From Bugula neritina (taxonomy: Eukaryota > Bryozoa > Gymnolaemata > Cheilostomatida > Bugulidae), in contig OZ037773.1 of assembly GCA_964035545.1 (NCBI GenBank), forward strand, positions 939,751 to 1,003,750: 64,000 nt of DNA. Direction: 5' to 3'. The notes under the pieces are model-generated. The model had not been told where the DNA came from, made no database searches, and saw nothing but the letters and a program-made list of their open reading frames with translations. Both the position numbers and the translations under genes were made by a program. Below, in pieces: positions 15,639-59,759 of the stretch. Position 1 is the stretch's first letter; the number at the start of each line of letters is the position of its first letter.

Positions 15639-15930
15639 ATAAGCCATTTTCAGCGGTACATTCAGCTGTTTCTGTTACACCGTTTGTCCGAGGAACTAGA
15701 GTCAGCTCATTGGATGATTCAGTTGTCACAACTCTATTATATGTCCAAGTGAACGTAGAGGGCGGTGGGTTGGCATCCACATGTTGGCTACAATCTAGTC
15801 TAGCATCAGAATGTCCAGGATTGAGTTCTTTCACAATTGGATCTGGATCATCAGCCTTTCTATCCAAGTCTACAGAAATGAAATTCATAGCACAGGGCTG
15901 TCTAACAGGAGGCCCCAGGACCGGATGTGG
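15639..15930 (-). CDS. Ig gene copy 1, exon 5 (Ig3), main part 3' of the insertion
   Basis: It encodes an I-set-like domain: LDCSQHVDANPPPSTFTWTY with the first Cys and core Trp, then TETAECTAENG with the second Cys. It ends at the donor T|GTAAGA at 15639. The 5' 12 bases of the exon lie at 23395-23406 on the other side of element B. The target-site copy gtgg (15927-15930) is exon sequence. Confidence 0.8.
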
Positions 15931-16235
15931 TGTTGTATTTTTCAGAATTAGGGTTGATGTGTAACCAAGAGAGTCTATTTGTTGCTAGAGACTTCACCAG
16001 GATTAGTCGGGTTGATATCGTTGTATTTTAACACAAGAATACATAATAAAAAGGATATAAAAACTGGTAACAAATCACACGTCTATTTAATTTACTGCAC
16101 TATCCTCAACTGACTAGTAGCGCGAAGCTAACTACTGCTACTCACTAGCAGCTTCGCTAATTGGCTGAGTACATTGTTCCGGGTCAATACGCGACCCTGC
16201 GTATTGTGCTGTTGGTAGCTCCACGAGCCACCACA
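15931..16235 (-). repeat. Gypsy B 3' LTR (lower-coordinate copy)
   Basis: Starts TGTTGTATTT and ends CCACCACA on the plus strand. The adjacent CCGCCCCCACC is the complement of the polypurine tract, so this is the 3' LTR of a minus-strand element. Confidence 0.93.
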
Positions 16236-16513
16236 CCGCCCCCACCAGCAGAAAGCCCTCTTTCTGATATAAAAATAATTTACAAGTAACTACGTACATC
16301 AGTGGACTAAACGGGAGCAAACATATAAAATGTATATACAAGATCCAAATTAGTTAGATACATATATATAGATATAAAAAGAATACACAATAAACTAACA
16401 TTAAGTAATTAGTAAGTCTTATTTACATATAGAGTACGTGCCACAGTCACGGCAGGGAAGGCCACAGTGAGGTAGTAGAGGAGTGAGGTGGAAGGCTGGG
16501 GAAGGAGCTCATA

Positions 16514-17591
16514 TTAATCCTGGGCTGCTCGTTTCATACGTTTGATAGACTCTTGTAGCGACCGGAGCTAACTGGATGCGGCATAAATGCAGGGGGCCAG
16601 TCTGTAAACCTCTTGTTCCAGCTCATTTGTCCTGGTCTCTACTTCTCGTAGGTTTTGGGCCAGAGGGGATGAGCGGGAGAAAGTCTGCTGCTGCTGGTGT
16701 CTTTTTTCGTTCTGCGGACGGAAGTGGGAGAGGAAGTGTGTACGTCTTCGTGTCTACCCTCTGTAGTACGACACGGGGGAGTGTATGTGGTCGACGTATG
16801 GGACTGAGAGGTGGGGAATTAGATGACTTCGTAGGTTTATCTACGGGTTCCGAGATGATGGGTTTAGGGGAGGGAAAGCCTTGCTCCAGGCGAGATAGCC
16901 GAGCTGGGTCGGTGATGAGAGGTCTGATAGCTTTGAGGAATGCTGAGTAAGATGATTTATCCACATCGTATACGTGTCCCTGAAAGCAATGCATGGTGCG
17001 TTGATGACGCAGTAGATAGTCTCGGTTATAACTATATTCCCCGCAGGGGCAGAACGTTGTGATAAAATGCTGCGGCAAGTGGACTCCTAATCTACGACGA
17101 GTTGTAAACCGCTGTTGACATAGCTGGCATTCGCGGTTATTGTCATCCCCTCTATATCTCTTAATTTCTGTCTTTGTGGCAGGGGTAGTCCAGTTGAAGG
17201 TTGCTTCTAGCTGGTGTGGCAGCTGTCTGGTTGTGGAAGTTGCTGAGACCGGCTCTGGGTCCCACGCCATCTCTAGAGAAGGCATGCCCGGAGAGACGGG
17301 CGCGAGTGTGTCTACAAAAGTAGAATTATTGTCAGATCGCGGCGGACCTTTACAACATAATTCCAGTGACTGTCGACTGTTACTAGTCTGAGAGTCACAA
17401 CTTTTAGAATGCACTCGAGAGACCAGTGAATCATGTGTGGACTGACCAAGAACAGTGTCTAGCTCCAGGTTTAACAGACCGTCGGCCATTATAGCGTCCT
17501 CGTCGTCATTCACGTGAAACGTGGTCCCCAGTAATTCTAATTCAAGCTGATGAATTAGCTCAGAATTTACTGGCATGGAGCCTGTTTCCAT
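16514..17591 (-). pseudogene. Gypsy B ORF3: C2H2-like zinc-finger and coiled-coil protein
   Basis: The frame opens with METGSMPVNSELIHQLE and an acidic N-terminal third. It then has a C-x2-C-x12-H-x3-H finger (CQLCQQRFTT...VHLPQHF), a second variant finger (CPCGEY...LLRHQRTMHC), a conserved block around LSRLEQGFPSPKPII, and a Pro/Ser-rich stretch. A one-base insertion near 16690 relative to element A throws the last 55 codons out of frame. In the right frame the end reads LQESIKRMKRAAQD and stop at 16514-16516, a coiled coil. It has no signal peptide or membrane segment, so it is not Env-like. The function is unknown; nucleic-acid binding is inferred. Confidence 0.75.
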
Positions 17592-17608
17592 GGATAGGAA
17601 TACAAGAT

Positions 17609-17920
17609 TTATACTGGCTTACCTGTGAACTCGGTATTAGTGTCCATACTCAATGTTCTTGGTAAGGTTGGAGCTAATTGTAAAGTACATCTGCCCTTGG
17701 CGATGTCAGCGTAAGAAAAGGCTGGGCATCGTTTCTGAGGCACGAGGTCGGAATTATTTGCTTTATGCGCATTAATTCCTCCCACTACTCCGCCCTCGCA
17801 AAAGTTGATATTTGCGTGGGGTTCACAACTCCAACATTTCTCCGTACGGTTTTCCCTTAGACTTCCATGTGTGCCGCTTCTAATGCAGTCACATACGAAG
17901 TCTTTTAAATATGGTGGGGG
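17609..17920 (-). CDS. Gypsy B Cys/His-rich tail after integrase
   Basis: In the frame that follows the gypsy pol signature end (PPPYLKDFVCDC) the sequence continues for about 100 codons: CWSCEPHANINFC (C-x2-C-x3-H-x5-C), then FSYADIAKGRC, ending FTGKPV and stop at 17609-17611. Element A has the same extension, but the D pol frame stops soon after YLQDFWCD. A good donor consensus (CAG|GTAAGC) overlaps the end at 17617-17622. The role is unknown. It could be a C-terminal extension of pol or a separate spliced product. Confidence 0.55.
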   Translation of the reverse strand, partial: PPPYLKDFVCDCIRSGTHGSLRENRTEKCWSCEPHANINFCEGGVVGGINAHKANNSDLVPQKRCPAFSYADIAKGRCTLQLAPTLPRTLSMDTNTEFTGKPV

Positions 17921-17943
17921 TCTCCTCGTACGCTGTCCCCGTT

Positions 17944-20900
17944 CTAGGGGGGTGACACGCTCGCCGGTTCATTAGCAGGGGCCTCTAATGGCAATTCTAC
18001 TTCACCGTTAGCGGTCACTTCTTCCTGTTCTCCGGATGGAGCCCCTCCCTCCGTGGGGGTTTGCACTTCCGGAACCGGCTCGGTTTCTGGAAGTGATGGA
18101 ATCAGACTTGGCGGCGGCGGACGCGCCTCTGTTGGCAAAAGCTGTCGCTTTTCTCTCACCAAGTCTTCTTCCCGCGGTATGACCACTTCATATTCACGTC
18201 CATGCCGCCGTCACCCACGCGTTGTTGTCTGGCTTCTAGGCTCTAACAACGGGGGGGGGCTTCTCCCACTGCGTCGGGGCTAGCCCAATACGGTTTCAAG
18301 CGAGACTCATTCTGAATAGACACCTGTCCTGAGCGTTCAATCTTGTACGTATGATTGGGCATAGCCTCGACGATCACGTAGGGTCCCACGAACTTAGGCT
18401 GTAACTTAGCTGCCTGTCCGCGACGTCTACGGTAATTGACCATCCACACCTAATCCCCCGTCTGATAGAGGGGTGGTTCCTCGGAATCTTCGTGTCGCAC
18501 CTTCCACTGCTGTTCGCGCAGTATTTCGTGTGCGGCCTTCATCCGTTCCACTAGTTCACTGGCATACTCATGAACCGAGTTGTCTTGCTCTGGAACGTGG
18601 TAGGTGAGATGGTCGGGGACACGAGTCTCTTTCCCGAGCATCAAGAGGTTTGGGGTTTCACCAGTACTGGTGTGTGGGGTGCTACGGTATGCACGCATGA
18701 CCTGCGGCAACACCGTGTATCATTCCTCTTTTCCGCGTCCAAGGAGGAGGTTCCGGAGCGCATCACCTAGCATCCGGTTGTTGCGCTCTACCACCCCGTT
18801 ACCTTGAGGGTGGTAGGGTGTGGTCCGGCTCTGATTTACTCCCAAGAGGCAGCAAAGGTTGCTCATCAGTTGAGACTGGAATTGAGCGCCTTGATCAGAG
18901 TGTATCTGTTCGGGGAGACCGAAATAACAGAATACATGTTGGTCTAGCACCCGGGCCACGGTTGGAGCCGACGCATCTGGGATGGTCAGAGCGTCCGCCC
19001 ACCTCATGAAGTGGTCGGTCAATACTAAGATCCAACTATTGCCTCTGGGGGTTGGAGGCATAGATCCGACCAGGTCTACAGCGACTACTTGCCAAGGCCT
19101 TCCAGCATATAGCCTCCGCCGTCCCGCTTCGCCAGGAAGACGGCCATGCTTACTGGCCTGGCAGATTTCGCACTGTTTGACTCTGAGTTGGACGTCCCGC
19201 TCCATCTGGGGCCAATACCACCGGAGTTGTAGTTTGGAGATCACTCTCTTGACTCCTGCGTGAGCCTGTTTGTAAGCGTCCCAAATCAGCTCACGGCGGA
19301 TGGCAGTGGGGCAGACCACCCTCTTCCTCTCTGGGTGTCTGCCGCTGGCAGCTAAAGAAATGGTCAGTAGATCATCCTGCCCGATCCGCAGCGAGTCCCA
19401 ACGCTGGCAGTATAGCTGGAACTCGGCGCATCCCTGCCGTATGCGTTCCTCGCTGAGTCGTCGCCCTTCCTATTTGGCCCGATATATATCCGCTACTACC
19501 CCAGGCAGCTCTCCTTGGAGCTTCTTCAGCTCCCGGACATCATCAGCCAGTACAGGATTGGCGCGGAAGTTTTGTACAACCTCCGGGGACTCGTCAACTT
19601 TCTGCCTGAGTTGACCCTGATCCCAATCAAATTGTGCTCGGTGGTGAGCCAGTGTCTCTAATTCACATCGCGGGGAACCTCCATCCCTCCTCTCGATATT
19701 GAGACACTGTTTGCAACTATCAGGTCGGCGGCTCAGCCCATCCGCATTGCTGTGTCTCTTGCCCGGTCGATGTTCGATCCGGTACGAGAACTCAGCTAGG
19801 ATTTCGAGCCACCGGGCGACCTGACTGGAGGGCTCTGCTCTCTTGCACAACCAGATCAGTGAGGCATGATCCGTACGCAGCCGAAAATTCCTGCCATATA
19901 AGTATGGTCTGAAGTGCTTCACTGACTTGATTACTGCCAGCAGCTCCTTGCGGGTAGTGCAGTAATTTCGTTCAGTGGGTGAGAGAGACTTGCTGTAGTA
20001 AGCTACTACTACTTCTCGGCCTTCCTGCACTTGAGACAGCACAGCGCCAACATTCTGGTCACTGGCGTCAGTGTTGAGGATGTACTCCAGAGCGGGGTCT
20101 GGGTAGGCCAAGATGGGTGCCGTCAGTAGGCAACCCTTGAGGCGATCGAACGCTTCTTGTTCGACCGGGGTCCTCTGCCCCGTCACCCCCCTTTGCGGTG
20201 AGCCGGTTTAACGGCTGGGCTATGCCCGCAAAGTCTGGTATGTATTGTCTGTAATACCCTACCAGCCCCAAGAAAGCCCGGAGTCCGGTCAAGTCTTGGG
20301 GGGTGACCCAGTCTTCTATCGCCCGTACCTTTTCGGGATCCGTTGCCACACCGTTTCGACCGACAACGTGCCCCAGGTACTTGACCTCCGGCTGCAATAG
20401 AGCGCACTTGGAAGGTTTGAGCTCAAGACCGGCACCTCGGAGTCTCTCGAAGACCTCCCGCAGATGACTGACATGTGTCTCGAAATCTCGGAAGATCACG
20501 ATGACATCATCGAGGTAGATCAGCAGTGTCTTCTAATGGAGCCCGCTGAGGACTTGCTCCATCAGCCTCTGGAAGGTGGCTGGGGCAGAGGTTAACCCGA
20601 AAGGCAACACCTTCCACTTCCACAAACCGTTCCTTGTGATAAACGCCGCTTTCTCCTGGGCGTCGGGACTCAGAGGAACTTGCCAGTAGCCACTCAGCAA
20701 GTCTAACCTACTGAAGTACTTGCTGCCGGCTAGGGCATCCAATGACTCGTCAATACGAGGTAAAGGGTAAGCGTCCTGTATGGTTACGCTATTGAGTTTG
20801 CGGTAATCCACACAGAACCGCCAACTGCCGTTTTTCTTCTGTACCAGTACGACCGGCGAGCTCTACGCACTATGGGCGGGCTCTATGAGGCCGCGGTCCA

Positions 20901-21845
20901 GAAGATCCCGTACTTGTCGGCTAACCTCCTTTTCTTTTTCTGGCCCCAGCCTGCGTGTGGGTTGGCGGACAGGGACTGTCCCTGCAGTCAGCGGTATTTC
21001 GTGTCTGACAACTCCAGTCAGCCCCACGTCATGATCTCCGCTGCTGAACACATCACCGTAGTCGCGTAGCAACTTCGCCATAGCTTAATGTTCCTGGTTG
21101 CTCGCGCAGCCACCACAGGCTGTCTCATATAACTCCCGGATGTGAGTTGGGACCACTCCTCTCTTTTGAGTAGGGTGTCTAGGGGGTGTCTCCGTCGCAT
21201 CACCCAGCGACGGGCCCACGTCCTCTTCCTGGACGGAGTGAATTTGGCCCAGCATTGACCCAGCTGGAAGCTTGATGGGCTCGGTAAAGGGGTGTTGACA
21301 CACTGCACTAAGATCTCCCCTTGCTCAGTTAGTCGGTTTAAACTACTGGCGAGTTGGATCCTTTCGTGCGCGCCTTCAACGAACCCGAGTCTTGCTATCC
21401 GGTTGCTGTTCACTCGGCAGTGGATAGTGGCTCTGGAGCGTCCAGGTACAGTGCAGTTTCGAACTACCTGAACACCGCCCACTAAAGGACGCCCAAACTT
21501 ATTCACACAGGCGAGTTCTCGCCCGCCCATCAGCACTGCCGACTTGCCAAAGTCTATGCGGCATTGGTGCTGCTTCAAGAAAGGCATTCCGAGGATAGCA
21601 TCTTCCTTCAGCTGGCTTATGACAAAGGTCTCTTGTACAGCCTGGTCTCGGACACGCCCAGAGAGCTCGCTAATACCGTAGAAGGGAATACACGACCCGT
21701 CTGCTAGGGTGCCATGTTCTCCCGTAGGCCTATACGGTCGTACTCTATCCCTGTCTTGGCGGGGCAGTGCCTCAAAGACTCTACGACTGAGAAGGTTGGT
21801 AGTACAACCGCAGTCTAGCAGGAAGGTGACGACGTTACCCGCCAC
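17944..21845 (-). pseudogene. Gypsy B pol: protease, RT, RNase H, integrase, Pro-rich tail
   Basis: The protease reads LLDCGCTTNLLS, with Cys where the family has Thr or Ser after the catalytic Asp. RT pieces are at 20533-20811 ([10 protein letters not shown]) and 20068-20499 (a TAG replaces the Trp codon just before KTLLIYLDD). RNase H (DTDASDQNVGAVL, RPYLYGRNFRLRTDHASL) is at 19470-20186. Integrase (CEICQASK, VAVDLVGSMP, HSDQGAQF, YHPQGNGVVERNNRM) is at 18720-19319, with the GPY motif (KFVGPYVIVEAM) at 18243-18449. An in-frame TGA separates this from the Pro-rich tail, and the same TGA occurs in element A. At least five stops or shifts make the copy dead. Confidence 0.88.
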
Positions 21846-22188
21846 CTTTCCGGGTAGGAAGTAGCTCTCTCCGTGTGGTTGTACTTTCCCCCCCCCGCAT
21901 GTGTTGTCCTAAGTGGGTAGGACGGCGGGGGTTTTACCCGTGGTTTACGGGGTTTCCGGCGACGTGGTCGGTGCCGGCGGGGTTCGGAGCTCTCCACTGG
22001 GCCTTCTGGCTCTAATTTAGTGGCGGGCTGCTCTTCCCGAGGTAACCGGTGGAACCGGTTGGTGAGTGGCAGGGAGAAGGTACTCGGCCGCTGTGCGGGC
22101 CTGCTAGTCCTGCGTGGTACCTGCCACTCGGGGGGAGTGTACCGTCGTGTCCGTACGGACAGGCGGCAGCGTGTCCCACCCTGTTCCT

Positions 22189-23055
22189 TCAGTTTCGGCC
22201 CGCGGGGAGGAAGGGCGTCCGCGGGCCGTGACAGTTTAACGCCCCCTGGTGTTGGGGTCGTCCTGGCTGTCTATGGTCTTGACCAGCACTAGTCCAGCCC
22301 GGCCCCGCAGGTGCTGGGGGCAACCGCGGTTCCTGACCGGGGCCAGCGCTGGCAAGAATCGTTACCAGCTGTCCCAACATCTCTACCATACGGCCCACTT
22401 CGGCTTCCACAGGGGGAGCTTTGGGGCCCGCCGTAGCTCTGGCAGCACTGACTCCAACTGCTGGTGGGTTCCCTTGCGCTCGGTGCATTTGGGTAGCTAA
22501 CAGATAAGCTTCTCCAGCCTTTAAGGCATCCTCTATCGTGGTGATCCCTTTAGCTCGTAGTTGGTAGTGTAGGCCCAGGTCGTTCAGTGACTGGACGAAA
22601 GCGTCGTAGGTGTAACGCTCTTGGTGTTGTGCTGGTAGGTCACCATATGCAATTTGTGCCAGCTTCTTCACCGTCGCGGCATGCTCTTGCAGCGAGGTCC
22701 GCGGGGTGCGGCACAATCTCTGTAACCGGGTCCTGGCGTCTATTGCGGAGATGCCAAAGCGGCCCCGCAACGCAGCCAATATCCCGTCTACGTCCGTTCC
22801 TATTCCGTACGGCTTGGCTTGCTCCGCCAACGCTCTCCACAACTAGATAAGGGCCACTCTATGCGGCCATTGTGCAATATTGATGACTTCTCTAAACTCC
22901 TGTATAAACTATTCGACATCTTCTGACCCAGTAAAGGTGGGGGCTTTCAAGCGATATCGATAAGCCTCTTTTCCCACATGATTCACAGGAATGACATCAT
23001 TTCTTCGCTCACCTTCTACTGGGGGTGGTTGCATTCTAGCATTTTCAGTCTCCAT
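22189..23055 (-). pseudogene. Gypsy B gag
   Basis: It starts METENARMQPPPVEG at 23055 and encodes about 288 residues. The capsid-type motif AYRYRLKAPTFTGSEDVEQFIQ is followed by AQWPHRVALI, a TAG at 22843-22845 (Gln or Lys in relatives), then the long helical part ARTRLQRLCRTPRTSLQEHA and a Pro-rich end. No canonical CCHC knuckle is seen at the C-terminus, unlike in elements C and D. The single stop makes this copy defective. Confidence 0.85.
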
Positions 23056-23069
23056 CTTTGATGTACACT

Positions 23070-23087
23070 ATCCCACCGCTGCCACCA
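23070..23087 (-). other. Primer-binding site of gypsy B, tRNA-Leu type
   Basis: The plus strand reads TATCCCACCGCTGCCACCA one base inside the 5' LTR. ATCCCACCGCTGCCACCA equals the 3' 18 bases of metazoan tRNA-Leu including CCA. Confidence 0.85.
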
Positions 23088-23088
23088 C

Positions 23089-23394
23089 TGTTGTATTTTT
23101 CAGAATTAGGGTTGATGTGTAACCAAGAGAATCTATTTATTGCTAGAGACTTCACCAGGATTAGTCGGGTTGATATCGTTGTATTTTAAGCACAAGAATA
23201 CATAATAAAAAGGATATACAAACTGATAACAAATCACACGTCTATTTAATTTACTGCACTATCCTCAACTGACTAGTAGCGCGAAGTTAACTACTGCTAC
23301 TCACTAGCAGCTTCGCTAATTGGCTGAGTACATTGTTCCGGGTCAATACGCGACCCTGCGTATTGTGCTGTTGGTAGCTCCACGAGCCACCACA
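23089..23394 (-). repeat. Gypsy B 5' LTR
   Basis: 306 bp, TG...CA, next to the primer-binding site. About six differences from the LTR at 15931-16235. Confidence 0.93.
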
Positions 23395-23778: not shown

Positions 23779-23919
23779 ACTGTGGTGTGATGGCAACAGT
23801 TTGTTCAGTACTCCCTCTCTTCCAGTTAGAATGTTTTGTATCTGTACAGAATAAAGTTAGTCCAGCTCTGTCTGTCTCTGTGGGAGTATATTTTCCAGCC
23901 ACTGTGTTACCATTTACCT
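23779..23919 (-). CDS. Ig gene copy 1, exon 4 (second half of Ig2)
   Basis: Acceptor TTTATCAG, donor T|GTAAGT, 141 bases, phase 1 at both ends. It encodes VNGNTVAGKYTPTETDRAG, then LTLFC and NWKRG, the distal sheet and second Cys of Ig2. Only two residues differ from copy 2. Confidence 0.85.
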
Positions 23920-24992: not shown

Positions 24993-25103
24993 TGTATTCA
25001 TAGACTGACACAGGATCTGCTCCTGTAGAGTTACAATCAAAGGTAAATTCTTCCCCTTCTATAATAGTTGCTGGTTTATTAAGTGATATGCCAGTTGGAG
25101 CAA
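24993..25103 (-). CDS. Ig gene copy 1, exon 3 (first half of Ig2)
   Basis: Acceptor CTACAG, donor A|GTAAGT, 111 bases, phase 1 both ends. It encodes APTGISLNKPATIIEGEEF and FDCNSTGADPVSVYEY with the first Ig2 Cys. The protein sequence is identical in copy 2. Confidence 0.85.
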
Positions 25104-25698: not shown

Positions 25699-26112
25699 CT
25701 TTGACTTCCATTGAAATTTTTAAGGAGAGAACTTCTCCCACACCACCTCCTTCAAACCCTCTACAGTAGAACTTCCCTTTGCGTGATGAATCAGTTGCAG
25801 TGAGTTGTACAGAAAGAGTGAACCCTTCAGGTTTACCAACTGAGTTACAGTCTGCATGGCTGACTCCAGAACCTTCTATTCCAGAGACAGTAATAATTTC
25901 TGGAGTTGATGAACTCCGCCATACTGTGTCATCCTCAGCACTTCGAGTACATCCACTTTGATAGATTGTACTGTCTCCATCAGCTTCATATCGTAACTGT
26001 AAAGTTCTCAGATCAGTATAACCAGATGCTTCACATGTGAAGGTTATATTCTCATCTTTATAGAAGTCAGGTGAGCTTGTAGTAGTGTAGTTCATCTCTG
26101 TAGATGGTTGAC
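25699..26112 (-). CDS. Ig gene copy 1, exon 2 (Ig1, hypervariable)
   Basis: A 414-base exon with acceptor TTTAG and donor G|GTGAAC. It encodes one Ig domain with four cysteines: FTCEASGY, SGCTRS, ADCNSVG and KFYCRGFEGG. The last Cys sits in a Y-x-C position usual for V/I-set strand F. An extra Cys pair suggests a second disulphide. Against copy 2 (51049-51462) 34 of 133 residues differ from MNY onward, clustered in the loops around TVWRSSSTPE and GSGVSHAD, with no indel and every Cys and Trp kept. Confidence 0.88.
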
Positions 26113-26357: not shown

Positions 26358-26415
26358 CAATTGTGTAGCTAAATAGTACTAATACTTTAAAAATGGTTAT
26401 CCAGGGAAGTTTCAT
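26358..26415 (-). CDS. Ig gene copy 1, exon 1 (signal peptide)
   Basis: ATG at 26413-26415 opens MKLPWITIFKVLVLFSYTI, a basic residue followed by a hydrophobic core as in a secretory signal. The donor G|GTAAGTGA gives phase 1, matching exon 2. TTTTCAG lies five bases upstream of the ATG, so a 5' UTR intron is possible. In copy 2 the donor reads G|TTAAGTGA. Confidence 0.75.
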
Positions 26416-48155: not shown

Positions 48156-48322
48156 TTATCCAACCACTCCTGAGACTACTACTGCAACTATCACTGGAAT
48201 GAAAGTAGAAAGTATGCCACCTATCAGACCTCCCTTGTTTACACCAGTTGTAGTGGGGGTTGTAGGGAGTATTGTGGCAGTATCCTTCCACATTATGTTC
48301 CATTTGATAGTCACCGTCTTTG
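48156..48322 (-). CDS. Ig gene copy 2, exon 6 (stalk and hydrophobic C-terminus)
   Basis: Reads TATILPTTPTTT, GVNKGG, LIGGILSTFIPVIVAVVV and SGVVG, with stop at 48156-48158. Six residues differ from copy 1. The frame is intact, which supports it being a real exon. Confidence 0.75.
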
Positions 48323-51300
48323 CTGAAACCGATTTAAAGACATTTTGAAGAAAAAATAAGTTTAAACTTAAAAAACATCTACCACTAACATTAGTAAATT
48401 AGAAAAAACATTTACAATTCTCATTCATTTATATAAGTGCTAATTCTTACATAAGCCATTTTCAGCTGTACATTCAGCTGTTTCTGTTACACCGTTTGTC
48501 CGAGGAATTAGAGTCAGCGCATTGGATAATTCATTTGTCACAACTCCCTTATATGTCCAAGTGAACGTAGAGGGTGGTGGGTTGGCATCCACATGTTGGC
48601 TACAATCTAGTTTAGCATCAGATTGTCCAGGGTTGAATTCTTTCACAATTGGATCTGGATCATCAGCCTTTCTATCCAAGTCTACAAAAATAAAATTCAT
48701 AGCACAGGGCTGTCTAACACGAGGCCTTAGGACCGGATGTTGCCCCCAGCCTACATTTATGTGGCTCTCAAAGGCATAACAAATAAAACTATTTTTCACA
48801 CATATATGAATTTGAGAGAAAAACCACCTTTTGAATGTATTATTTATATAAATGCTACAAAATGTAGTATGCACTAACTATTGGGACTTTATTTTGTATT
48901 GATAAATAAGATTTTAGAATAAAATATTTGAAAATTACGGACGCTGCGGTACCCAGTTCAAACTAAAGTTTAAAATATGGCTTTTGCTACTGGAATATTC
49001 CCCTTCAGTGCCACTCCCTTTGAAAGGTTGGACACCCCTGGTCTAGCACCCTACATGTCAACTAAAAATTTCACATTCAAAGAGTAGGTATAACTAGAAA
49101 AATATTGATGGTGCTTACTTACACTGTGGTGTGATGGCAACAGTTTGTTCAGTATTCCCTCTCTTCCAGTTAGAATGTTTTGTATCTGTACAGGATAAAG
49201 TTAGTCCAGCTCTGTCTGTCTCTGTGGGAGTATATTTTCCAGCCACTGTGTTACCATTTACCTCTAATAAATAAAACATGTTCATGTATACTAATTCTTC
49301 AAAGACTCCCTGCACACTTCACTTATGCAGTACTGAAAGATTCTTATAATAATATGTTAGTTTTCATTTACATACTCTTTTAAGGTTGGATGGTAAAGGT
49401 AAAGGTAAAGGCGACTGAAAATTTGATTTCCATGCAATCAGAAATCCTAAAACATTTTAGCATATACTTGAACAAAATTCATTATAAAACAGAATGCAAA
49501 TGAAAAGTAACATATATAAGAATATTTTAATACTGCATAAGTGAAGTGTGTCAGGGCAAGAAAACTACCAGAGAAGAAGTAAAAAGTATAAATACAGCCT
49601 ACAAGCACAATTCTATGGTAAATTTGCTCAGGACTCATTTATGTACATTTTCTACTTTTCTGCAATACTTAAAAAAATAAATTGAAAAGATTTTTGTGTT
49701 ACAGTTGCTAAATCAGCCCTAAACCTTCTTTCAGCAAGAACAAATTAGTTCCAGCTTAATTTTGATAAAAAAATTTACGATATAACAGGCGAGTTGGTTT
49801 GTGGTTGACGAATATTATTGGTTATTTAATTGAGACTGAAAAAAAGACTGTAGACACTTCTTTCGAATCATCTAACTTTTTACATTTCAATCTATTATAG
49901 CAAACTGATTTATAAACTATTGTAAACTCATTAGATAATATTCTCAGAGTTTTACAACATTCAAATATTTATATAATTAAATAGGAATACAGTGCTCCCT
50001 CCAAACCTGCTGGTCTGATACCCTTATCTGTGACATAGCAGAATACCAGATTTAACTCACAGAACAGTTAAATACGGACATTTTGTCTCTATATACACAC
50101 ATATACATAAGTTACAAAAAGAAAATTCAAGTTCTTCTCATGTCTTATGTTACTTTGTCAGGAATGGAGAGTTCTGAGATATGGAGGGAGCACTGCATAT
50201 TACATCACTTGTATAACAATAATTAGCTAAACTAAAACCTGGTTTGTTGTTCACTAAATTTAAAATTTAATTTGCTTCTAGTTTCTTAGATAGAAATCTG
50301 GGGAAGCTTGTTGCACAACATTTAGACAGGTATATACTTACTGTATTCATAGACTGACACAGGATCTGCTCCTGTAGAGTTACAATCAAATGTAAACTCT
50401 TCCCCTTCTATAATAGTTGCTGGTTTATTAAGTGATATGCCAGTTGGTGCAACTGCAGAATGAAGGAATGCACAATATATATTTTCAAATACAGGTGCAT
50501 CGATGTATTGTAAATTAGGTTAGGACTGCAGTAGAGGCCATTTGCTATATCCTGGGTAAATTGTGTCAATAAAAAGTGTAAATCTAAATAGTAAAACTGC
50601 AACATTCCAAGTCTGCCTATGATAACAGTTATCTGAAACTACATGCCAACCAGATATCCTTATGTGATCCTGACCAGAAAATCTCCAACAAAGGTATAAT
50701 AAACTAAAATTTGTCCTCAACCCAACAAAGATAACAAATATATTATTTTGATTTAACTAACCACCATCATCATGGGATAAGTTGAATATTATCACTAAAT
50801 CTTTCCATGAGATACTGGACAGCATTTTTCAACAAAGGCCTAATATAACAAATATTATCCACTATTCATATAATGCATATCAAACATACTATTTCAATAC
50901 CAATAATACCAATCTTGGGAACAGTTAAATTTGTCTATGAGGAAGGAAGGAGGAAGTTAGTTAAAAACTATGAGAAGTTGTACTAGAAATTGCTAGAGTA
51001 GTCTATAAAGACTATCATTGACCGAAGAAATTAGTTTGAACTGTTCACCTTTGACTTCCATTGAAACTTCCGAAGAGAGAATTTCTCCCACACTTCCTCC
51101 TTCAAACCCTCTACAGTAGAACTTCCCTTTGAGTGATGAATTAGTTGCAGTGAGTTGTACAGAAACAGAGAACCCTTCAGGTTCACCAACAGAGTTACAG
51201 TATGGATTACTGACTTCAGGACCTTCTATCCCAGAGATATCAGTAATATCTGGAGTTGATATACCAACCCATACTGTGTCATTCTCAGGACTTAGACCAC

Positions 51301-51757
51301 ATCCACTTCTGTACATTTCACTGTCTCCATCAGCTTCATATCGTAACTGTAAGATTCTTAGATCAGTATAACCAGATGTTTCACATGTGAATGTTACATT
51401 CTCATCTTTATAGAAGTCAGGTGAGCTTGGAGTACTGTAGTTCATCTCTGTAGATGGTTGACCTAAACATATGTAATTTTAATAGCTTAGCTCAATACTA
51501 ATCCAATTGTGGAAATGAAAAGAAGAATTTTGGCCAACTCATTCATGTGACACTGCCATCACAAGAAAGGAACATCTACAAGTTGTGTGAGCATAAAAAT
51601 CATATGTAAAAGGAATAGAAATGTGGTTACCAACATTCATTTAAAAGTAAGAACCAGACTTATCAATCACTGAAAATTTATTCAGAAATATTCACTTAAC
51701 AATTGTGTAGCTAAATAGTATTAATACTTTAAAAATGGTTATCCAGGGAAGTTTCAT
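48156..51757 (-). CDS. Three-Ig-domain surface receptor gene, copy 2
   Basis: Exons on the minus strand: 51700-51757, 51049-51462, 50342-50452, 49123-49263, 48451-48750 and 48156-48322. Lengths equal those of copy 1 exactly, and all junctions are phase 1. The order is signal peptide, Ig1, Ig2 (two exons), Ig3, Thr-rich stalk, C-terminal hydrophobic segment; 396 residues if correctly spliced. All coding exons are open. The only lesion is the first donor, TTAAGT instead of GTAAGT. If GT is taken one base earlier, the reading frame is lost. The gene may therefore be a recent pseudogene or use another first exon. The role in surface recognition is inferred from architecture. Element A lies about 540 bp upstream of the ATG. 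Confidence 0.8.
48451..48750 (-). CDS. Ig gene copy 2, exon 5 (Ig3, intact)
   Basis: 300 bases, acceptor ATGTAG, donor T|GTAAGA. CWGQHPVLRPRVRQPC, then LDCSQHVDANPPPSTFTWTY and TAECTAENG. This shows the uninterrupted form of the exon that gypsy B splits in copy 1. Confidence 0.85.
49123..49263 (-). CDS. Ig gene copy 2, exon 4 (Ig2 second half)
   Basis: 141 bases. TPTETDRAGLTLSC and NWKRGNTEQTVAITPQ. Borders TTAG and T|GTAAGT. Confidence 0.85.
50342..50452 (-). CDS. Ig gene copy 2, exon 3 (Ig2 first half)
   Basis: 111 bases, acceptor CTGCAG. The protein is identical to copy 1 and the few base changes are silent. Confidence 0.85.
51049..51462 (-). CDS. Ig gene copy 2, exon 2 (Ig1, hypervariable)
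   Basis: 414 bases, same borders as copy 1. Four cysteines at the same positions (FTCETSGY, SGCGLS, PYCNSVG, KFYCRGFEGG). Loops differ: TVWVGISTPDITDIS and GPEVSNPY against TVWRSSSTPEIITVS and GSGVSHAD. Confidence 0.88.
51700..51757 (-). CDS. Ig gene copy 2, exon 1 (signal peptide), donor mutated
   Basis: MKLPWITIFKVLILFSYTI, one conservative change from copy 1 (Val to Ile). The junction reads ACAATTG|TTAAGTG where copy 1 has ACAATTG|GTAAGTG. Confidence 0.75.
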
Positions 51758-52297: not shown

Positions 52298-52603
52298 TGT
52301 GGTGGCTCGTAGAGCTACCAGCAACACAATACGCAAGGTTGCGTATTGACCCGGAACGATGTATTAGCCAATTAGCTAAGCTGCTTATGAATAATAGTAG
52401 CAGCTTCGCGCTACTAGCCCAGTTGAGGATAGTGCTGTAAATTAAATAGACGTGTGTATTATTAACTGTTGTATATTAGATTTTATTATGTATTCTTGTA
52501 TTCAAATATAACGATATCTACTCGACTTATCACGGTGAAGTTTCTCCAGTAATAAATAGACTCTCTTGGTTGCACATCGACCCTAATTCTGAAAATCATA
52601 ACA
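52298..52603 (+). repeat. Gypsy A 5' LTR
   Basis: Starts TGTGGTGGCTC and ends AATCATAACA. An AATAAA at 52551-52556 can serve as polyadenylation signal in the R region. Confidence 0.93.
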
Positions 52604-52604
52604 G

Positions 52605-52622
52605 TGGTGGCAGCAGTGGGAT
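52605..52622 (+). other. Primer-binding site of gypsy A, tRNA-Leu type
   Basis: TGGTGGCAGCAGTGGGAT is complementary to the tRNA-Leu 3' end with one mismatch against the sites of B and D. Confidence 0.85.
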
Positions 52623-52636
52623 AGTGTACATCAAAG

Positions 52637-53503
52637 ATGGAGACTGAAAATGCTAGAATGCAACCACCCCCAGTAGAAGGTGAGCGTAGAAATGATGTTA
52701 ATCCTGTGAATTGTGAGGGAGAAGACGCTTATAGATATTGCTTGAAAGCTCCCACTTTTACTGGGTCAGAAGATGTCGAACAGTTTATACAAGAATTTAG
52801 AGAGGTAATGGAGATTGCTCAATGGCCGCATAGAGTGGCCCTTATCCAATTGCGGAGAGCGTTGACGGAGCAAGCCAAGCCGTACGGAGTGGGAACGGAC
52901 GTAAACGGAATACTGACTGCGCTGCGGGCCTGTTTTGGCATCACCGCAATAGACGCTAGGACCAAGCTACAGAGATTGTGCCGCACCCCGCAGACCTCGC
53001 TGCAAGAACATGCCGCGACGGTGAAGAAGCTGGCACAGATTGCGTATGGTGACCTACCAGCGCAACACCAAGAGCGTTACACATACGACGCCTTTGTCCA
53101 GTCACTAAACGACCTGGGCCTACACCATCAACTTCGAGCTAAAGGGATAACCAGAATAGAGGATGCCCTGAAGGCTGGAGAAGCTTACCTGTTGGCTACC
53201 CAAATGCATCGAGCACAACGGAACCCACCAGTAGTTGGAGTCAGTGCTACCAGGGCCACGACAGGCCCCGAAGCCCCCCCGCTGGAAGCCGAAGTGGACC
53301 GTATGGTAAAGATGCTGGGACAGCTGGTAACAATTCTGGCCGGCGCTGGCCCCGGTCAGGCCCTGCGGTTGCCCCCAACACCTGTGGGGCAGGGCTGGAG
53401 TAGTGCTGGTCAGGACCATAGACAGAAAGGACGACCCCAATACCAGGGGGCGTTTAACTGTCACAGCCCGCGGAGGCTCTCCCTCCCCGCGGGCTGCAAC
53501 TGA
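52637..53503 (+). CDS. Gypsy A gag
   Basis: 288 codons, intact. Start METENARMQPPPVEGE. The capsid motif APTFTGSEDVEQFIQEF at about residues 37-53 is followed by AQWPHRVALIQLRRAL, then the helical ARTKLQRLCRTPQTSLQEHA, AYLLATQMHRAQRNPP and a Gly/Pro-rich end. It would form the particle shell. The end FNCHSPRRLSLPAGC has Cys and His but not the CCHC spacing found in elements C and D, so RNA binding may be handled elsewhere, possibly by the Cys/His tail after integrase or by ORF3. Confidence 0.85.
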   Translation: METENARMQPPPVEGERRNDVNPVNCEGEDAYRYCLKAPTFTGSEDVEQFIQEFREVMEIAQWPHRVALIQLRRALTEQAKPYGVGTDVNGILTALRACFGITAIDARTKLQRLCRTPQTSLQEHAATVKKLAQIAYGDLPAQHQERYTYDAFVQSLNDLGLHHQLRAKGITRIEDALKAGEAYLLATQMHRAQRNPPVVGVSATRATTGPEAPPLEAEVDRMVKMLGQLVTILAGAGPGQALRLPPTPVGQGWSSAGQDHRQKGRPQYQGAFNCHSPRRLSLPAGCN

Positions 53504-53804
53504 AGGAGTCTGGTGGGACACGCCGTCGTCTGTCCGTACAAACACGACGGAACACTCCCCCCGAGTGGCAGGTACCACGCAGGACTAGCAGGCCCGCACA
53601 ACGGCCAAGTACCTTCTCCCTGCCACTCGCCAACCGGTTCCACCGGTTACCTCGGGAGGAGGAGCCCGCCACTGAAATGGAGCCGGAAGGCCCAGTGGAG
53701 AGCCCCAAACCCCGCCGGCACCAACCTCGCCGCCGGAAACCCCGTAAACCACGGGTGAAACCCCCGCCGTCCTACCAATCTAGGACAGCAAACGTGGGGG
53801 GGGG

Positions 53805-56800
53805 GTGAAAGTACAACCACATGGAGAGAGCTATTTCCTACCCGGAAAGGTGGCCGGCAACGCCGTCACTTTCCTGCTCGACTCCGGTTGTACTACCAAC
53901 CTTCTCAGTCGTAGAGTCTTTGAGGCACTGCCCCGCCCCGCCGGGACAGGGATAGAGTACGACCGTATACGGGGGAACATGGCACCCTGGCAGACGGGTC
54001 ATGTATTCCCTTCTACGGTATTATCGAGCTCCTTGGGCGTGTCCGAGACCAGGCTGTACAGGAGACTTTTATCATAAGCCAACTGGAGGAAGATGCTATC
54101 CTCGGAATGCCTTTCTTGAAGCAATACCAGTGCCGAATAGACTTCAGCAAGTCGGTGGTGCTGATGGGCGGGCGAGAACTCGCCTGGGTGGATAAGTTTG
54201 GGCGTCCTCTGGTGGGCGGTGTTCAGGTAGTTCGAAACTGCACCGTGCCCGGACGCTCCAGAGCTACTATCCACTGCCGAGTGAACAGCAACCGGGTAGC
54301 CAGGCTCGGGGTCGTTGAAGGCGCGCACGAAAGGATCCAACTCGCTAGTAGTTTAAACCAACTAACTGAGCGAGGGGAGGTCTTGGTGCAGTGTGTCAAC
54401 CCCTTTACCGAGCCCATTGAGCTCCCAGCTGGGTCAATGCGGGGCCGGTTCCACTCCGTCCAGGAAGAGAACGTGGGCCTGTCGCTGGGTGACGCGACGG
54501 AGACACCCCCTCGACACCCTACTCAGGGACGAGGGGCAGTCCCAACACATCTCCGGGAGTTATATGAAACAGCCTGTGGCGGCTGCGCGAGCAACATGGA
54601 ACGCCAAGCGATGGCGAAGTTGCTACGCGACTACGGTGATGTGTTCAGCAGCGGAGATCATGACGTGGGGCTGACTGGAGTTGTCAGAGACGAAATACCG
54701 CTGACTGCAGGGACAGTCCCTGTCCGGCAACCCACACGCAGGCTGGGGCCGAAAAAAGAGAAGGAGGTTAGCCGACAAGTACGGGATCTTCTGGACCGCG
54801 GCCTCATAGAGCCCGCCCATAGCGCGTGGAGCTCACCGGTCGTACTGGTCCGGAAGAAAGACGGCAGTTGGAGGTTCTGTGTGGATTACCGCAAACTCAA
54901 TACCGTAACCATACAGGACGCTTACCCTCTACCTCGTATTGACGAGTCATTGGACGCCCGAGCCGGCAGCAAGTACTTCAGTATGTTAGACTTGCTGAGT
55001 GGCTATTGGCAAGTCCCTCTGAGTCCCGACGCCCAAGAGAAAGCGGCGTTTATCACACGGGACGGGTTGTGGAAGTGGAAGGTGCTGCCCTTCGGGTTAA
55101 CCTCCGCCCCAGCCACCTTCCAGAGGCTGATGGAGCAAGTCCTTAGCGGGCTCCATTGGAAGACACTGCTGATCTACCTCGATGATGTCATCGTGATCTT
55201 CCCAGACTTCGAGACGCATGTCAGTCGTCTGCAGGAAGTTTTCGAGAGACTCCGAGGTGCCGGTCTTAAGCTCAAACCTTCCAAGTGCGCTCTATTGCAG
55301 CCGGAGGTCAAGTACCTGGGGCACGTTGTCGGGCAAAACGGCGTGGCAACGGATCCCGAAAAGGTACGGGCGGTAGAAGACTGGGTCACCCCCCAAGACT
55401 TGACCGGACTCCGGGCTTTTTTGGGGCTGGTAGGGTATTACAGGCAATACATACCGGACTTTGCGGGCATAGCACAGCCGTTAAACCGGCTCACCGCAAA
55501 GGGAGTGACGTGGCAGTGGACCCCAGTCGAACAAGGAGCGTTCGACCGCCTCAAGGGCTGCCTGCTAACGGCGCCCATCTTGGCCTACTCAGACCCCACT
55601 CTGGAGTACATCCTCGACACGGATGCCAGTGACCAAAATGTTGGCGCTGTGCTGTCTCAAGTGCAGGAAGGCCGAGAGGTAGTAGTAGCCTACTACAGCA
55701 AGTCTCTCTCACCCGCTGAACGAAATTACTGCACTACCCGCAAGGAGCTGCTGGCAGTAATCAAGTCAGTGAAGCACTTCAGACCATACTTATACGGCAG
55801 GAAGTTCCGGCTGCGTACGGATCATGCCTCGCTGATCTGGTTGTGCAAGAGAGCAGAGCCCTCCAGTCAGGTCGCCGGTGGCTCGAAATCCTAGCTGAAT
55901 TCTCCTACCGGATCGAACATCGACCGGGCAGGAGACACAGCAATGCGGATGGTTTGAGCCGCCGACCTGATGGAGGTTGCAAACAGTGTCTCAACATCGA
56001 GAGGAGGGACGGAGGTCCCCCGCGATGTGAGTTGGAGACGCTGGCTCGCCATGGAGCACTGTTTGACTGGGACCAGGGTCAACCCAGACAGGAGGTTGAC
56101 GAGTCCCCGGAGGTTGTACAAAACCTCCGCGCCAACCCTGTACTGGCCGATAGTGTACGAGAGCTGAAGAAGCTCCAAGAAGAGCTGCCTGGAGTAGTGG
56201 CAGACATATATCGGGCCAAAAAGGAAGGGCGACGACCCAGCGAGGAACGCATAAGACAGGGATGCGCCGAGTTCCGGCTATACTGTCAGCGTTGGGACTC
56301 GCTGCGGATCGGGCAGGATGGTCTACTGACCATTTCTCTAGCTGCCAGCGGCAGACACCCGGAGAGGAAGAGGGTGGTCTGTCCCACTGCCATCCGCCGT
56401 GAGCTGATTTGGGACACTCACAAACAGGCCCACGCAGGGGTCAAGAGAGTGATCTCCAAATTACGGCTCCGGTGGTATTGGCCACAAATGGAGCGTGACG
56501 TCCGACTCAGAGTCAAACAGTGTGAGATCTGCCAGGCCAGTAAGCATAGCCGTTCCCCTGATGAAGCGGGACGGCAGAGGCTATATGCTGGAAGGCCCTG
56601 GCAAGTAGTCGCTGTAGACCTGGTCGGACCCATGCCCCTGACCCCCAGAGGCAATAGTTGGATCTTAGTACTGACCGACCACTTTACTAGGTGGGCGGAT
56701 GCTCTGGCTATCCCAGATGCGTCAGCCCCAACAGTGGCCAGGGCATTAGACCAACATGTATTCTGTTATTTTGGTCTCCCCGAACAGATACACTCTGATC

Positions 56801-57480
56801 AAGGCGCTCAATTCCAGTCTCAACTGATGAGCGACCTTTGCTGCCTCTTGGGAGTAAATCAGAGCCGGACCACACCCTACCACCCTCAAGGTAACGGGGT
56901 GGTAGAGCGCAACAACCGGATGCTAGGTGATGCGCTCCGGAGCCTCCTCCTTGGACGCGGCCAAAAGGAATGGGATACGGTGTTGCCGCAAGTCATGCGT
57001 CCATACCGTAACACCCAACACACCAGTACTGGTGAGACCCCAAACCTCTTGATGCTCGGGAGAGAGACTCGTGTCCCTGACCATCTTACCTACCACGTTC
57101 CAGAGCAAGACAACTCGGTTCACGAGTATGCCAGTGAACTAGTGGAACGGATGAAGGCCGCACACGATATACTGCGCGAACAGCAGTGGAAGGTGCGGCA
57201 CGAAGATTCCGAGGAACCACCTCTCTACCAAACGGGAGATAAGGTGTGGATGGTCAATCACCGTAGGCGTCGCGGGCAGGCTGACAAATTAAAGCCTAAG
57301 TTTGTGGGACCCTACGTGATCGTCGAGGCTATGCCCAACCATACGTACAAGATTGAGCGCTCAGGACAGGTGTCTATCCAGAATGAGTCTCGCTTGAAGC
57401 CGTATTGGGCTAGCCCCGACGCAGTGGGAGAAGCCCCCCCGTTGTTGGAGCCCAGGAGGCAGACAACAACACGCGGGTGA
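53805..57480 (+). pseudogene. Gypsy A pol: protease, RT, RNase H, integrase
   Basis: Protease FLLDSGCTTNLLS near 53870-53910 is in one frame. An indel at the CCCCGCCCCGCCGGG run shifts to the frame at 54107-55894, which carries the rest of protease, RT ([36 protein letters not shown] at 55175-55186) and RNase H (DTDASDQNVGAVL, LRTDHASLIWLC). A one-base loss near 55877 moves to 55843-57480, the integrase: Cys pair CEICQASK, catalytic region VAVDLVGPMP, HSDQGAQF, PQGNGVVERNNRM, and GPY motif KFVGPYVIVEAM. It ends at a TGA that gypsy B shares. Only two shifts separate it from an open pol. Confidence 0.92.
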
Positions 57481-58084
57481 CGGCGGCATGGACCTGAATA
57501 CGAAGTGGTCATACCGCGGGAAGAAAACTTGGTGAGAGAGGAGCGACAGCTTCTGTCAACAGAAGCGTGTCCGCCACCGCCAAGTCTAATTCCATCACTT
57601 CCAGAAACCGAGCCGGTTCCGGAAGTGCAAACCCCCACGGAGGGAGGGGCTCCATCCGGAGAACAAGAAGAGGTGACCGCTAACGGTGAAGTAGAGACGC
57701 CATTAGAGGCCCCTACTAATAAACCGGCGAGCGTGTCACCCCCCCTAGAACGGGGACAGCGTACGAGGAAACCCCCACCATATTCTAAAAGACTTCGTAT
57801 GTGACTGCATTGAAAGCGGCACGCATGAAAGTCTAGGGGAAAACCGTACGATAAAATGTTGGAATTGTGAAACCCACGCAAATATCAACTTTTGCGAGGG
57901 CGGAATAGTGGGAGGAATTAATGCGCGTAAAGCAAATAGTTCCGACCTCGTGCCTCAGAAACGATGCTCAGCCTTTTCTTACGCTGACATCGCCAAAGGC
58001 AGACGTATCTCACAACCAGCTCCAATCTTACCAAGAACGTTGAGTATGGACATTAATACCGAGTTCACAGGTAATCCAGTATGA
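57481..58084 (+). CDS. Gypsy A pol tail: Pro-rich region then Cys/His-rich extension
   Basis: In the frame of integrase, after one TGA (57478-57480), a Pro/Glu-rich tail runs to KPPPYSK at about 57790. A one-base shift relative to gypsy B then separates it from DFVCDCIESGTH, KCWNCETHANINFC (C-x2-C-x3-H-x5-C), FSYADIAKGRR and the stop at 58082-58084. PPPY(L/S)KDF is a usual gypsy pol end; the following 90 codons are extra and are conserved with gypsy B. Possible roles are zinc-dependent nucleic-acid binding or targeting. This is inference. Confidence 0.55.
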
Positions 58085-58101
58085 GTCTTGTATTCCTATC
58101 C

Positions 58102-59175
58102 ATGGAAACGGGCTCGATGCCAGTAAATTCTGAACTAATTCAACAGATTGAATCAGAATTACTGGGAACCACATTTCACGTGAATGACGATGAAGACACT
58201 GTAATGGCCGACGGTCTGTTAGACCTGGAGCTAGACACTGTTCTTGGTCAGTCCACACATGATTCACTGGTTCCTCGAGTGCATTCTAAAAGTTGTGACT
58301 CTCAGGCTAGTAACAGTCGACAGTCACTAGAATTATGTTGTAAAGATCCACCGCGATCTAACAATAATTCTACTTTTGTAGACACACTCGCGCCCGTCTC
58401 TCCGGGCATGCCTTCTCTAGAGATGGCGTGGGATCCAGAGCCGGCCCCACCCACTTCCACAACCAGACAACTACCACCCCAGTTGGAAGCAACCTCTAAC
58501 TGGACTACCCGTGCCACAGAGAGAGAGATTAAGACTCATAGAGGAGATGACAGTAACCGCGAATGCCGCCTATGTCAGCAGCGGTTTACAACCCATCGTA
58601 GGCTGAGAGTCCACTTGCCACAGCATTACATCACAACGTTCTGCCCATGCGGAGAATATAGTTACAATCGTGATTATCTACTGCGTCACCAACGCATTAT
58701 GCAGTGCTTTCAAGGACACGTCTATGAAGTAGACAAATCATCATATCCCGCATTCCTTAACGCCATCAGACCCCTCATCACCGACTCGGCTTGGCTGTCT
58801 CGCCTAGAGCAAGGCTTTCCCTCCCCTCGACCCATCATCTCTGAAACCATGGATAAGCCTACAAAATCAGCTAACTCCCCACCTCTCAGTCCTATACGCC
58901 AACCGCATACACTCCCCCGTGTCGTACTACAGAGGGTAGACACGAAGGCGTATACACTCCCTCCCCCACTTCCATCTTCAGAACGAAAAAGGCACAGACA
59001 GCAGACTTTCTCTCGTTCTTCCCCTCTGGCCCGCAACTTACGTGAAGTAGAAGCTAGGGCACACGACCTGGAGCAAGAAGTGTATAGACTGGCCCCGCGC
59101 GTGCATGCTGCATCCAGTGAACTCAAGTATCTACAGGAGTCTATTAAACGCATGAAGCGGGCGGCCAACGATTAA
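58102..59175 (+). CDS. Gypsy A ORF3: C2H2-like zinc-finger and coiled-coil protein, intact
   Basis: 357 codons from METGSMPVNSELIQQIE; I chose this Met because gypsy B starts there too, though a Met lies seven codons upstream at 58081. Residues 1-130 are acidic and Ser/Pro-rich. A classical finger has Cys155, Cys158, His171, His175 (C-x2-C-x12-H-x3-H). A variant finger has Cys181, Cys183, His196, Cys202. Then come WLSRLEQGFPSPRPII, a basic Pro-rich segment, and a coiled coil from about residue 307 (LREVEARAHDLEQEVY ... LQESIKRMKRAAND). There is no signal peptide or membrane segment, so it is not an envelope gene. Related ORFs occur in B, C and, as a remnant, D. It sits between pol and the 3' LTR and is probably made from a spliced or internal transcript. 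Confidence 0.85.
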   Translation: METGSMPVNSELIQQIESELLGTTFHVNDDEDTVMADGLLDLELDTVLGQSTHDSLVPRVHSKSCDSQASNSRQSLELCCKDPPRSNNNSTFVDTLAPVSPGMPSLEMAWDPEPAPPTSTTRQLPPQLEATSNWTTRATEREIKTHRGDDSNRECRLCQQRFTTHRRLRVHLPQHYITTFCPCGEYSYNRDYLLRHQRIMQCFQGHVYEVDKSSYPAFLNAIRPLITDSAWLSRLEQGFPSPRPIISETMDKPTKSANSPPLSPIRQPHTLPRVVLQRVDTKAYTLPPPLPSSERKRHRQQTFSRSSPLARNLREVEARAHDLEQEVYRLAPRVHAASSELKYLQESIKRMKRAAND

Positions 59176-59453
59176 CATGAGTCCATCTCCAACTCCATAC
59201 TACTCTTCCCCTACCTCTCTGTGGCATTCCCTCCCGTTACGGTGGCACGTACTCTACATGTAAATAGGACTTTCTTTTACATACTTGCATCATTCATTGT
59301 GCATATTTTTTTATATATACCTGTATCTCTAATCAGTTGGCTCTTGTATATTATACTTTTGTACTGTTCTCTATCTGCCCACCGATGTATACGTTTTTTT
59401 TATGTGAATTATATTTTTTTATCAGAAAAAGGGCTTTCTGCTGGAGGGGGCAG

Positions 59454-59759
59454 TGTGGTGGCTCGTAGAGCTACCAGCAACACAATACGCAAGGTTGCGT
59501 ATTGACCCGGAACGATGTATTAGCCAATTAGCTAAGCTGCTTATGAATAATAGTAGCAGCTTCGAGCTACTAGCCCAGTTGAGGATAGTGCTGTAAATTA
59601 AATAGACGTGTGTATTATTAACTGTTGTATATTAGATTTTATTATGTATTCTTGTATTCAAATATAACGATATCTACTCGACTTATCACGGTGAAGTTTT
59701 TCTAGTAATAAATAGACTCTCTTGGTTGCACATCGACCCTAATTCTGAAAATCATAACA
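59454..59759 (+). repeat. Gypsy A 3' LTR
   Basis: 306 bp, preceded by the polypurine tract. Differs from the 5' LTR at three positions by eye (one in TTCGAGCTAC, two in TTTTTCTAG). Confidence 0.93.

Follow-up and report, generated by a model that had tools for sequence, protein, structure and literature searches.

A multigene family of variable V-set receptors in the bryozoan Bugula neritina and the divergent first immunoglobulin exon of two of its members

Variable immunoglobulin (Ig) receptor families often detect germs or foreign colonies. The KIR and LILR genes of vertebrates form tandem clusters, undergo gene conversion and include members with and without signalling tails, and the FREPs of snails, which are lophotrochozoans, are secreted proteins with a fibrinogen C-terminal part whose variable Ig domain is diversified by conversion and point mutation. 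In bryozoans, colony fusion and rejection have so far been studied by behaviour. Passages of PMC11067881 and PMC12065747 describe some members of the Hydractinia Alr family as highly polymorphic in their extracellular part and report immunoreceptor tyrosine-based activation and inhibition motifs (ITAM and ITIM) on candidate genes. A section of PMC11686985 reports kin recognition and kin settlement for Bugula neritina larvae, and fusion in cheilostomes that is maybe limited to kin; text of the B. neritina draft genome paper (PMC7576161) mentions weak similarity to Alr1 only, and the term 'immun' is absent from PMC13326412. No molecular allorecognition locus of a bryozoan was found among the matches listed in the open-licence literature, outside which most subscription papers fall. 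Here we analyze two copies, A and B, of an Ig receptor gene in a 64,000-nucleotide stretch of the genome of this colonial cheilostome bryozoan (the window, C9:939751-1003750; 215.8 Mb of genome were searched). According to the original prediction, the exon encoding the first Ig domain (Ig1) is hypervariable between these copies within an otherwise nearly frozen gene, as might be expected of a recognition locus under diversifying selection or importing sequence by gene conversion.

The two copies belong to a real variable V-set receptor family, of which no earlier description was found in the literature searched. We assign a probability of roughly 0.6 to the reading that A and B are members of a multigene family in which conversion or selection has acted on Ig1, a patch of that domain forms a binding face and the receptors take part in the recognition of non-self. 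Within Ig1 the variation peaks on a patch of 15 codons (strands C'-C''), and where recent copies differ, the variants mostly occur elsewhere in the family as well. The A/B pair itself belongs to the tailless branch of the family, and one splice site of B is damaged. The exons of the two copies are as follows, in window positions.

51700..51757, minus strand: copy B exon 1, coding part, signal peptide MKLPWITIFKVLILFSYTI, with donor TT in place of GT
51049..51462, minus strand: copy B exon 2, hypervariable, Ig1 with V-set fold (AlphaFold2 model, fold searches), phase 1-1
51254..51298, minus strand: copy B exon-2 codons 55-69, the hypervariable patch, comprising the end of strand C', the C'-C'' turn and strand C''/D
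50342..50452, minus strand: copy B exon 3, N-terminal half of Ig2 (Pfam Ig_3 match in the combined A/B protein)
49123..49263, minus strand: copy B exon 4, C-terminal half of Ig2
48451..48681, minus strand: copy B exon 5, Ig3
48156..48322, minus strand: copy B exon 6, hydrophobic membrane segment followed directly by the stop codon, with no cytoplasmic tail
26358..26415, minus strand: copy A exon 1, coding part, signal peptide, GT donor
25699..26112, minus strand: copy A exon 2, Ig1
24993..25103, minus strand: copy A exon 3
23779..23919, minus strand: copy A exon 4
15639..15869, minus strand: copy A exon 5, Ig3
15344..15510, minus strand: copy A exon 6, membrane segment and stop

In both copies the coding sequence is open across all six exons (373 residues each), and exon 2 is bordered by AG and GT in the canonical phase 1. 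Introns of phase 1 divide the genes into signal peptide, Ig1, Ig2 (on two exons), Ig3 and membrane segment. The AlphaFold2 model and the fold searches describe Ig1 as a V-type beta sandwich. At the end of exon 1, copy B reads TT at 51698-51699 and is the sole exception among 13 copies of that exon-1 type, the other 12 having a GT donor (no exon 1 was found within 1.5 kb of the 178k copy); given this TT, copy B may perhaps be without a normal transcript.

The contrast between A and B in exon 2 is real. The exon lies exactly where it had been placed in both copies, with 414 bp in each, and an ungapped comparison gives 51 differing bases of 414 and the expected 34 differing residues, out of 137 rather than 133; a gapped alignment gives 46/411 (11.2%). 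All four Cys and the Trp are kept in both. Along the rest of the gene, computed on segments some of whose borders lie 1-4 bases off the final exon coordinates, divergence amounts to 1/540 (0.2%) in the 5' flank, 2/233 (0.9%) in intron 1, 49/595 (8.2%) in intron 2, 3/110 (2.7%) in exon 3, 45/1072 (4.2%) in intron 3, 2/142 (1.4%) in exon 4 and 22/382 (5.8%) in intron 4, and 9 of 78 residues differ in exon 5. The identical exon 3 protein, the two residue changes in exon 4 (of 48) and the 8-base indel, which falls in intron 1, were all found as described. Near identity holds for the 5' flank and intron 1 but not for introns 2-4 (4-8%); apart from the 5' end, just exons 3 and 4 can be called nearly frozen, and introns 2-4 and exon 5 cannot.

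The pattern of substitution points to imported or reassorted sequence. By the Nei-Gojobori method, exon 2 of A and B shows 11.5 synonymous and 39.5 nonsynonymous differences; the statement that most changes (39.5/51) alter amino acids is thus correct, but it equals the neutral prediction, with a synonymous divergence (dS) of 0.135 and a nonsynonymous divergence (dN) of 0.136 (ratio 1.01). A dN/dS at or below 1 had been named beforehand as speaking against the prediction: the values on the synonymous sites of exon 2 itself do speak against it, and those with the 5' flank and intron 1 as reference do not. In exon 2, synonymous sites have diverged far more than the 5' flank plus intron 1 (p 5e-10) and not significantly more than intron 2 (p 0.17); its nonsynonymous sites stand marginally above intron 2 (p 0.046) and clearly above intron 3 (p 4e-7). 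Because exon 2 exceeds the 5' end and not intron 2, the block of exon 2 and intron 2 seems to have a history different from that of the 5' end; and since synonymous sites are raised too, imported or reassorted sequence is indicated rather than point mutation alone. The clearest pair is 70k/147k, with 0/298 differences upstream, 3/558 (0.5%) in intron 2 and 33 in exon 2, both site classes being raised.

Exon-2 differences whose two states both occur among the other 24 copies are frequent, numbering 41/51 for A/B, 26/33 for 70k/147k, 12/12 for A/1087k, 4/4 for A/915k, 33/42 for A/1036k, 27/38 for B/147k and 35/39 for 34k/147k, with about 27% expected under uniform random change. At codons 55-58 and 65-69, copies 2-4 Mb apart share short words that match codon for codon, and the pairwise homoplasy index (PHI) over 26 copies gave 1/1000 shuffles. 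In the exon-2 tree B groups with 147k (82/87); conflict between the exon-2 and flank trees was considered as proof of import and set aside, the approximately unbiased (AU) tests being non-significant. Import or reassortment of exon-2 sequence is therefore judged likely from these comparisons, with no formal proof from the trees, and conversion-driven reshuffling is the likeliest cause of the exon-2 peak.

The search for further family members, which the original prediction had called for, returned at least 73 tblastn matches to Ig1 in the genome. On C9, 33 of them span query residues 2-138 (405-417 bp) without a stop and outside a degenerate array described below, and they fall into three clusters on this one chromosome: 11 copies at 0.03-1.09 Mb (the window group), 13 at 3.07-3.25 Mb (the 3.1 Mb group) and 9 at 4.13-4.21 Mb (the 4.1 Mb group). 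One further match has a row in the Ig1 alignment outside the 33; the very long open frame beside it was rejected as an artefact of a run of N. All 11 window-group exons are open and keep the four Cys and the Trp; the first Cys is missing from 3076k of the 3.1 Mb group. The codon alignment used the DNA of 27 of the 33 copies (11 + 13 + 3, six copies of the 4.1 Mb group lying outside it); stops or truncation excluded 3225k, 3240k and array unit L038, and 104k was omitted from most counts, being identical to 70k. These two loci agree across 3,411 bases, which marks either a very recent duplication or an assembly duplicate.

Within the window group, exon 2 is the most variable part and exceeds both flanks in 10 of 13 alignable pairs (of 55). 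As a control, the proportions of synonymous (pS) and nonsynonymous (pN) differences over 10 copies are 0.105 and 0.039 in exon 3 and 0.117 and 0.103 in exon 2. Codons 55-69 have a dN/dS of 2.51 in this group (2.23 uncorrected, bootstrap 0.94-6.83), and show the highest nonsynonymous divergence among 124 windows in each of the three groups, the patch having been chosen from a table without the 4.1 Mb copies (3 of 9 used), whose sequences had been inspected beforehand. Selection on a small patch of Ig1 is suggested, not proven.

Members elsewhere on C9 carry what A and B lack. The gene at 3.197-3.202 Mb has ten exons joined by nine GT-AG introns, all of phase 1, and encodes 702 residues without a stop in the order signal peptide, Ig1, Ig2, Ig1, Ig2, Ig3, membrane segment and tail, with one hydrophobic span by eye. 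Some genes of the cluster at 3.08-3.24 Mb likewise combine two Ig1-Ig2 units with a tail bearing tyrosine motifs, and the tail-exon matches on C9 lie in this interval. An ITAM consists of YxxL/I-x6-12-YxxL/I in a cytoplasmic tail; YxxL-x9-YxxL/I, whose spacing falls within that range, occurs in 6 of the 7 tails read here, an ITIM-like motif in 6 of 7 and YxxM in 5 of 7, with further tails at 3079k, 3086k, 3207k and 3229k, the last containing a stop. The gene with the 3164k tail has only an Ig1 fragment in the DNA read, so tailed genes are not all whole. In A, B and 34k the stop codon comes directly after the membrane segment and there is no ITAM, and no tail was seen by eye in the 4142k gene; since A and B are without a signalling tail, the signalling members of any recognition locus would lie about 2 Mb away. 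Tails at C9:3.18-3.23 Mb are built of 13-residue (39-bp) repeats of varying number (e.g. TDNSPYTEL/M), and the motif count may therefore change by slippage. The tail and membrane search also returned a membrane-segment match on C1, opposite-strand repeat matches and one stop-ridden match on C5.

Ectopic gene conversion would, on the reading favoured here, carry pieces of Ig1 between copies; alternatively, conversion may homogenise the flanks while selection keeps Ig1 diverse. The patch would be part of a binding face that tells ligands apart, tailed members would signal upon binding, and the tailless members in the window could serve as anchored co-receptors, decoys or ligands, or as a reservoir of variants. 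The most likely role of such a family would be the recognition of non-self, microbial or allogeneic. An allorecognition role is possible by analogy, and it is rather unlikely that C9 holds a full bryozoan allorecognition complex, in which conversion-reshuffled V-sets would meet face to face via C-C'-C'', ITAM/ITIM tails would read the match and tailless A would act as a label of self.

Several results weigh against this reading. Whole-exon dN/dS in exon 2 is not above 1, being 0.87 over 10 window-group copies and 0.57 over 23 copies, and the patch exceeds 1 in the window group only (0.65 for the 3.1 Mb and 0.87 for the 4.1 Mb copies), where its bootstrap interval spans 1. Among 12 copies of the 3.1 Mb group, exon 3 is as variable as exon 2 and under no tighter constraint (pN 0.096 versus 0.094), which, it seems, reflects an Ig2 type of their own in the second units. 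Exon 2 lies above both flanks in only 3 of 7 alignable pairs (of 91) in that group and in 0 of 1 (of 3) in the 4.1 Mb group; the contrast with the flanks chiefly characterizes the window group. When the comparison is limited to window-group copies, an excess of shared states appears in the downstream flank too, in 4 of 5 pairs (A/B 49/73, 70k/147k 19/44, A/915k 10/30 and A/1036k 37/58, against 13% expected; A/1087k, at 4/24, has none), so that the mosaic is not confined to exon 2. PHI is weak or absent within groups (26/1000 shuffles in the window group, 315/1000 in the 3.1 Mb group, 347/1000 for the 23 copies of both), in AU tests on exon 2 the three clades expected from the flanks scored 0.067, 0.094 and 0.066, none below 0.05, and shared states could arise by recurrent mutation at a few tolerant sites. 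The broken exon-1 donor of B and the missing tails of A, B and 34k count on the same side. The idea of a recognition locus gains a multigene, recognition-type Ig receptor family in a colonial animal and loses the regularity of the exon-2 excess outside the window group; of the two causes originally proposed for that excess, import or reassortment fits better than mutation alone.

That exon 2 diverged after duplication by point mutation under diversifying selection, with no import, is improbable: nonsynonymous change does peak in the same patch in all three clusters, the window-group pN/pS there is 2.23 and the most recent distinct pair, A/915k, differs in exon 2 at 4 bases only, all in the patch region, but synonymous sites are raised alongside in A/B and 70k/147k, and most differences already exist as variants in other copies. 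It is also unlikely that the window copies are decaying tailless paralogues under relaxed constraint with no recognition role left, as the TT donor of B, the stop after the membrane segment in A, B and 34k and the long terminal repeat (LTR) elements, one inside A (intron 4) and one upstream of B, might suggest; all 11 window-group exons remain open with their Cys and Trp, A and B are open over six exons, exon 3 is still constrained and relaxation does not make an exon outpace its own introns.

Retrotransposon insertions at different sites in A and B, together with differences along their length, leave very little probability to an assembly artefact in which allelic copies or mis-joined repeats were placed in tandem, although the identical 70k/104k pair is possibly a false duplicate; the assembly was probably made from long reads and Hi-C data and curated, going by parts of PMC11480708. 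A narrower form of the preferred reading, at somewhat less than even odds, would make the family a germ-sensing innate one with no part in colony recognition, resembling FREPs in use and not in build. Tandem variable Ig genes with tails of activating and inhibiting type fit immune receptors generally; against a purely germ-sensing role, the fusion of cheilostomes and kin settlement of B. neritina treated in portions of PMC11686985 imply that allorecognition needs receptors too.

Other features of the window and the genome were recorded alongside the family. Two LTR retrotransposons of one family flank or interrupt the copies, and the open reading frames (ORFs) at 4839-8156, past the 3' end of copy A, resemble a non-LTR retrotransposon, presumably with endonuclease and reverse transcriptase.

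15931..23394, strand not assigned: LTR retrotransposon within copy A intron 4, recognized by its ORFs, which we take to be of Gypsy type; LTR pair 98.0% alike
52298..59759, plus strand: LTR retrotransposon upstream of copy B, of the same family; LTR pair 99.0% alike

Distant Ig1-like exons of 25-41% identity were found at C9:211k, 227k, 359k, 368k and 827-865k, C1:3.74-3.82 and 5.21 Mb, and C2:28.2 and 33.4 Mb, and suggest a wider superfamily. At C9:3157.9-3161.8k, eight Ig1-like units stand head to tail with a period of 487 bp and 85% matches; a Dscam-like array of alternative exons was considered and set aside as less likely, since the array looks degenerate: stops or frame breaks interrupt some units, and the 3' ends differ from those of intact exons. 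As to a role as donor cassette, none of its distinctive patch words (SESEKVW type) was seen by eye in the aligned copies. Mitochondrial COX1, translated with code 5, agrees with a Bugula neritina reference entry at 507 of 509 positions (99.6%), which makes the animal this species or a sibling. COX1 matches were also obtained on C17, C65 and C196 (two split with internal TGA codons, one without TGA), and a near full-length COX1 copy stands in a nuclear scaffold at C6:11.17 Mb; organelles or bacteria of cobionts, and mitochondrial DNA copied into the nucleus, are possible sources. Rfam gave no match in the window.

ITAM-like tails on a clustered V-set family in one more colonial phylum would open to direct test whether the same signalling grammar has been used independently, and the family supplies named exons for resequencing. 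Neither a mixture of A and B (375 residues) nor the 702-residue model found a homologue among 5.8 billion proteins including nr and UniRef (E 0.001, 0.01), in a search that needs shared five-residue words within a limited length range and in which Alr was not directly compared; Ig1 gave nothing convincing against PDB by sequence, and only an Ig family scored above the Pfam cut-off in the 702-residue model. Unlike KIR and LILR, the family belongs to another phylum, and no sequence relation to them was detected. It differs from FREPs in that Ig3 is followed by a membrane segment, in some members with a tyrosine tail, and no fibrinogen domain was found in the 702-residue model or the window protein. 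The Botryllus fester co-receptors (FcoR), as described in a portion of PMC12065747, likewise form a multigene set of type I receptors and combine a variable-type Ig domain with ITIM/hemITAM tails, but they carry a sushi domain, whereas the bryozoan model scores only Ig. With Hydractinia Alr, going by passages of PMC11067881 and PMC12065747, the family shares clustered single-pass Ig-superfamily genes in a colonial animal; it differs in that no sequence relative was found for it, its window members are tailless and it is known from the genes of one assembly alone. Alr and FcoR are analogous to the bryozoan family in their plan and in their tails.
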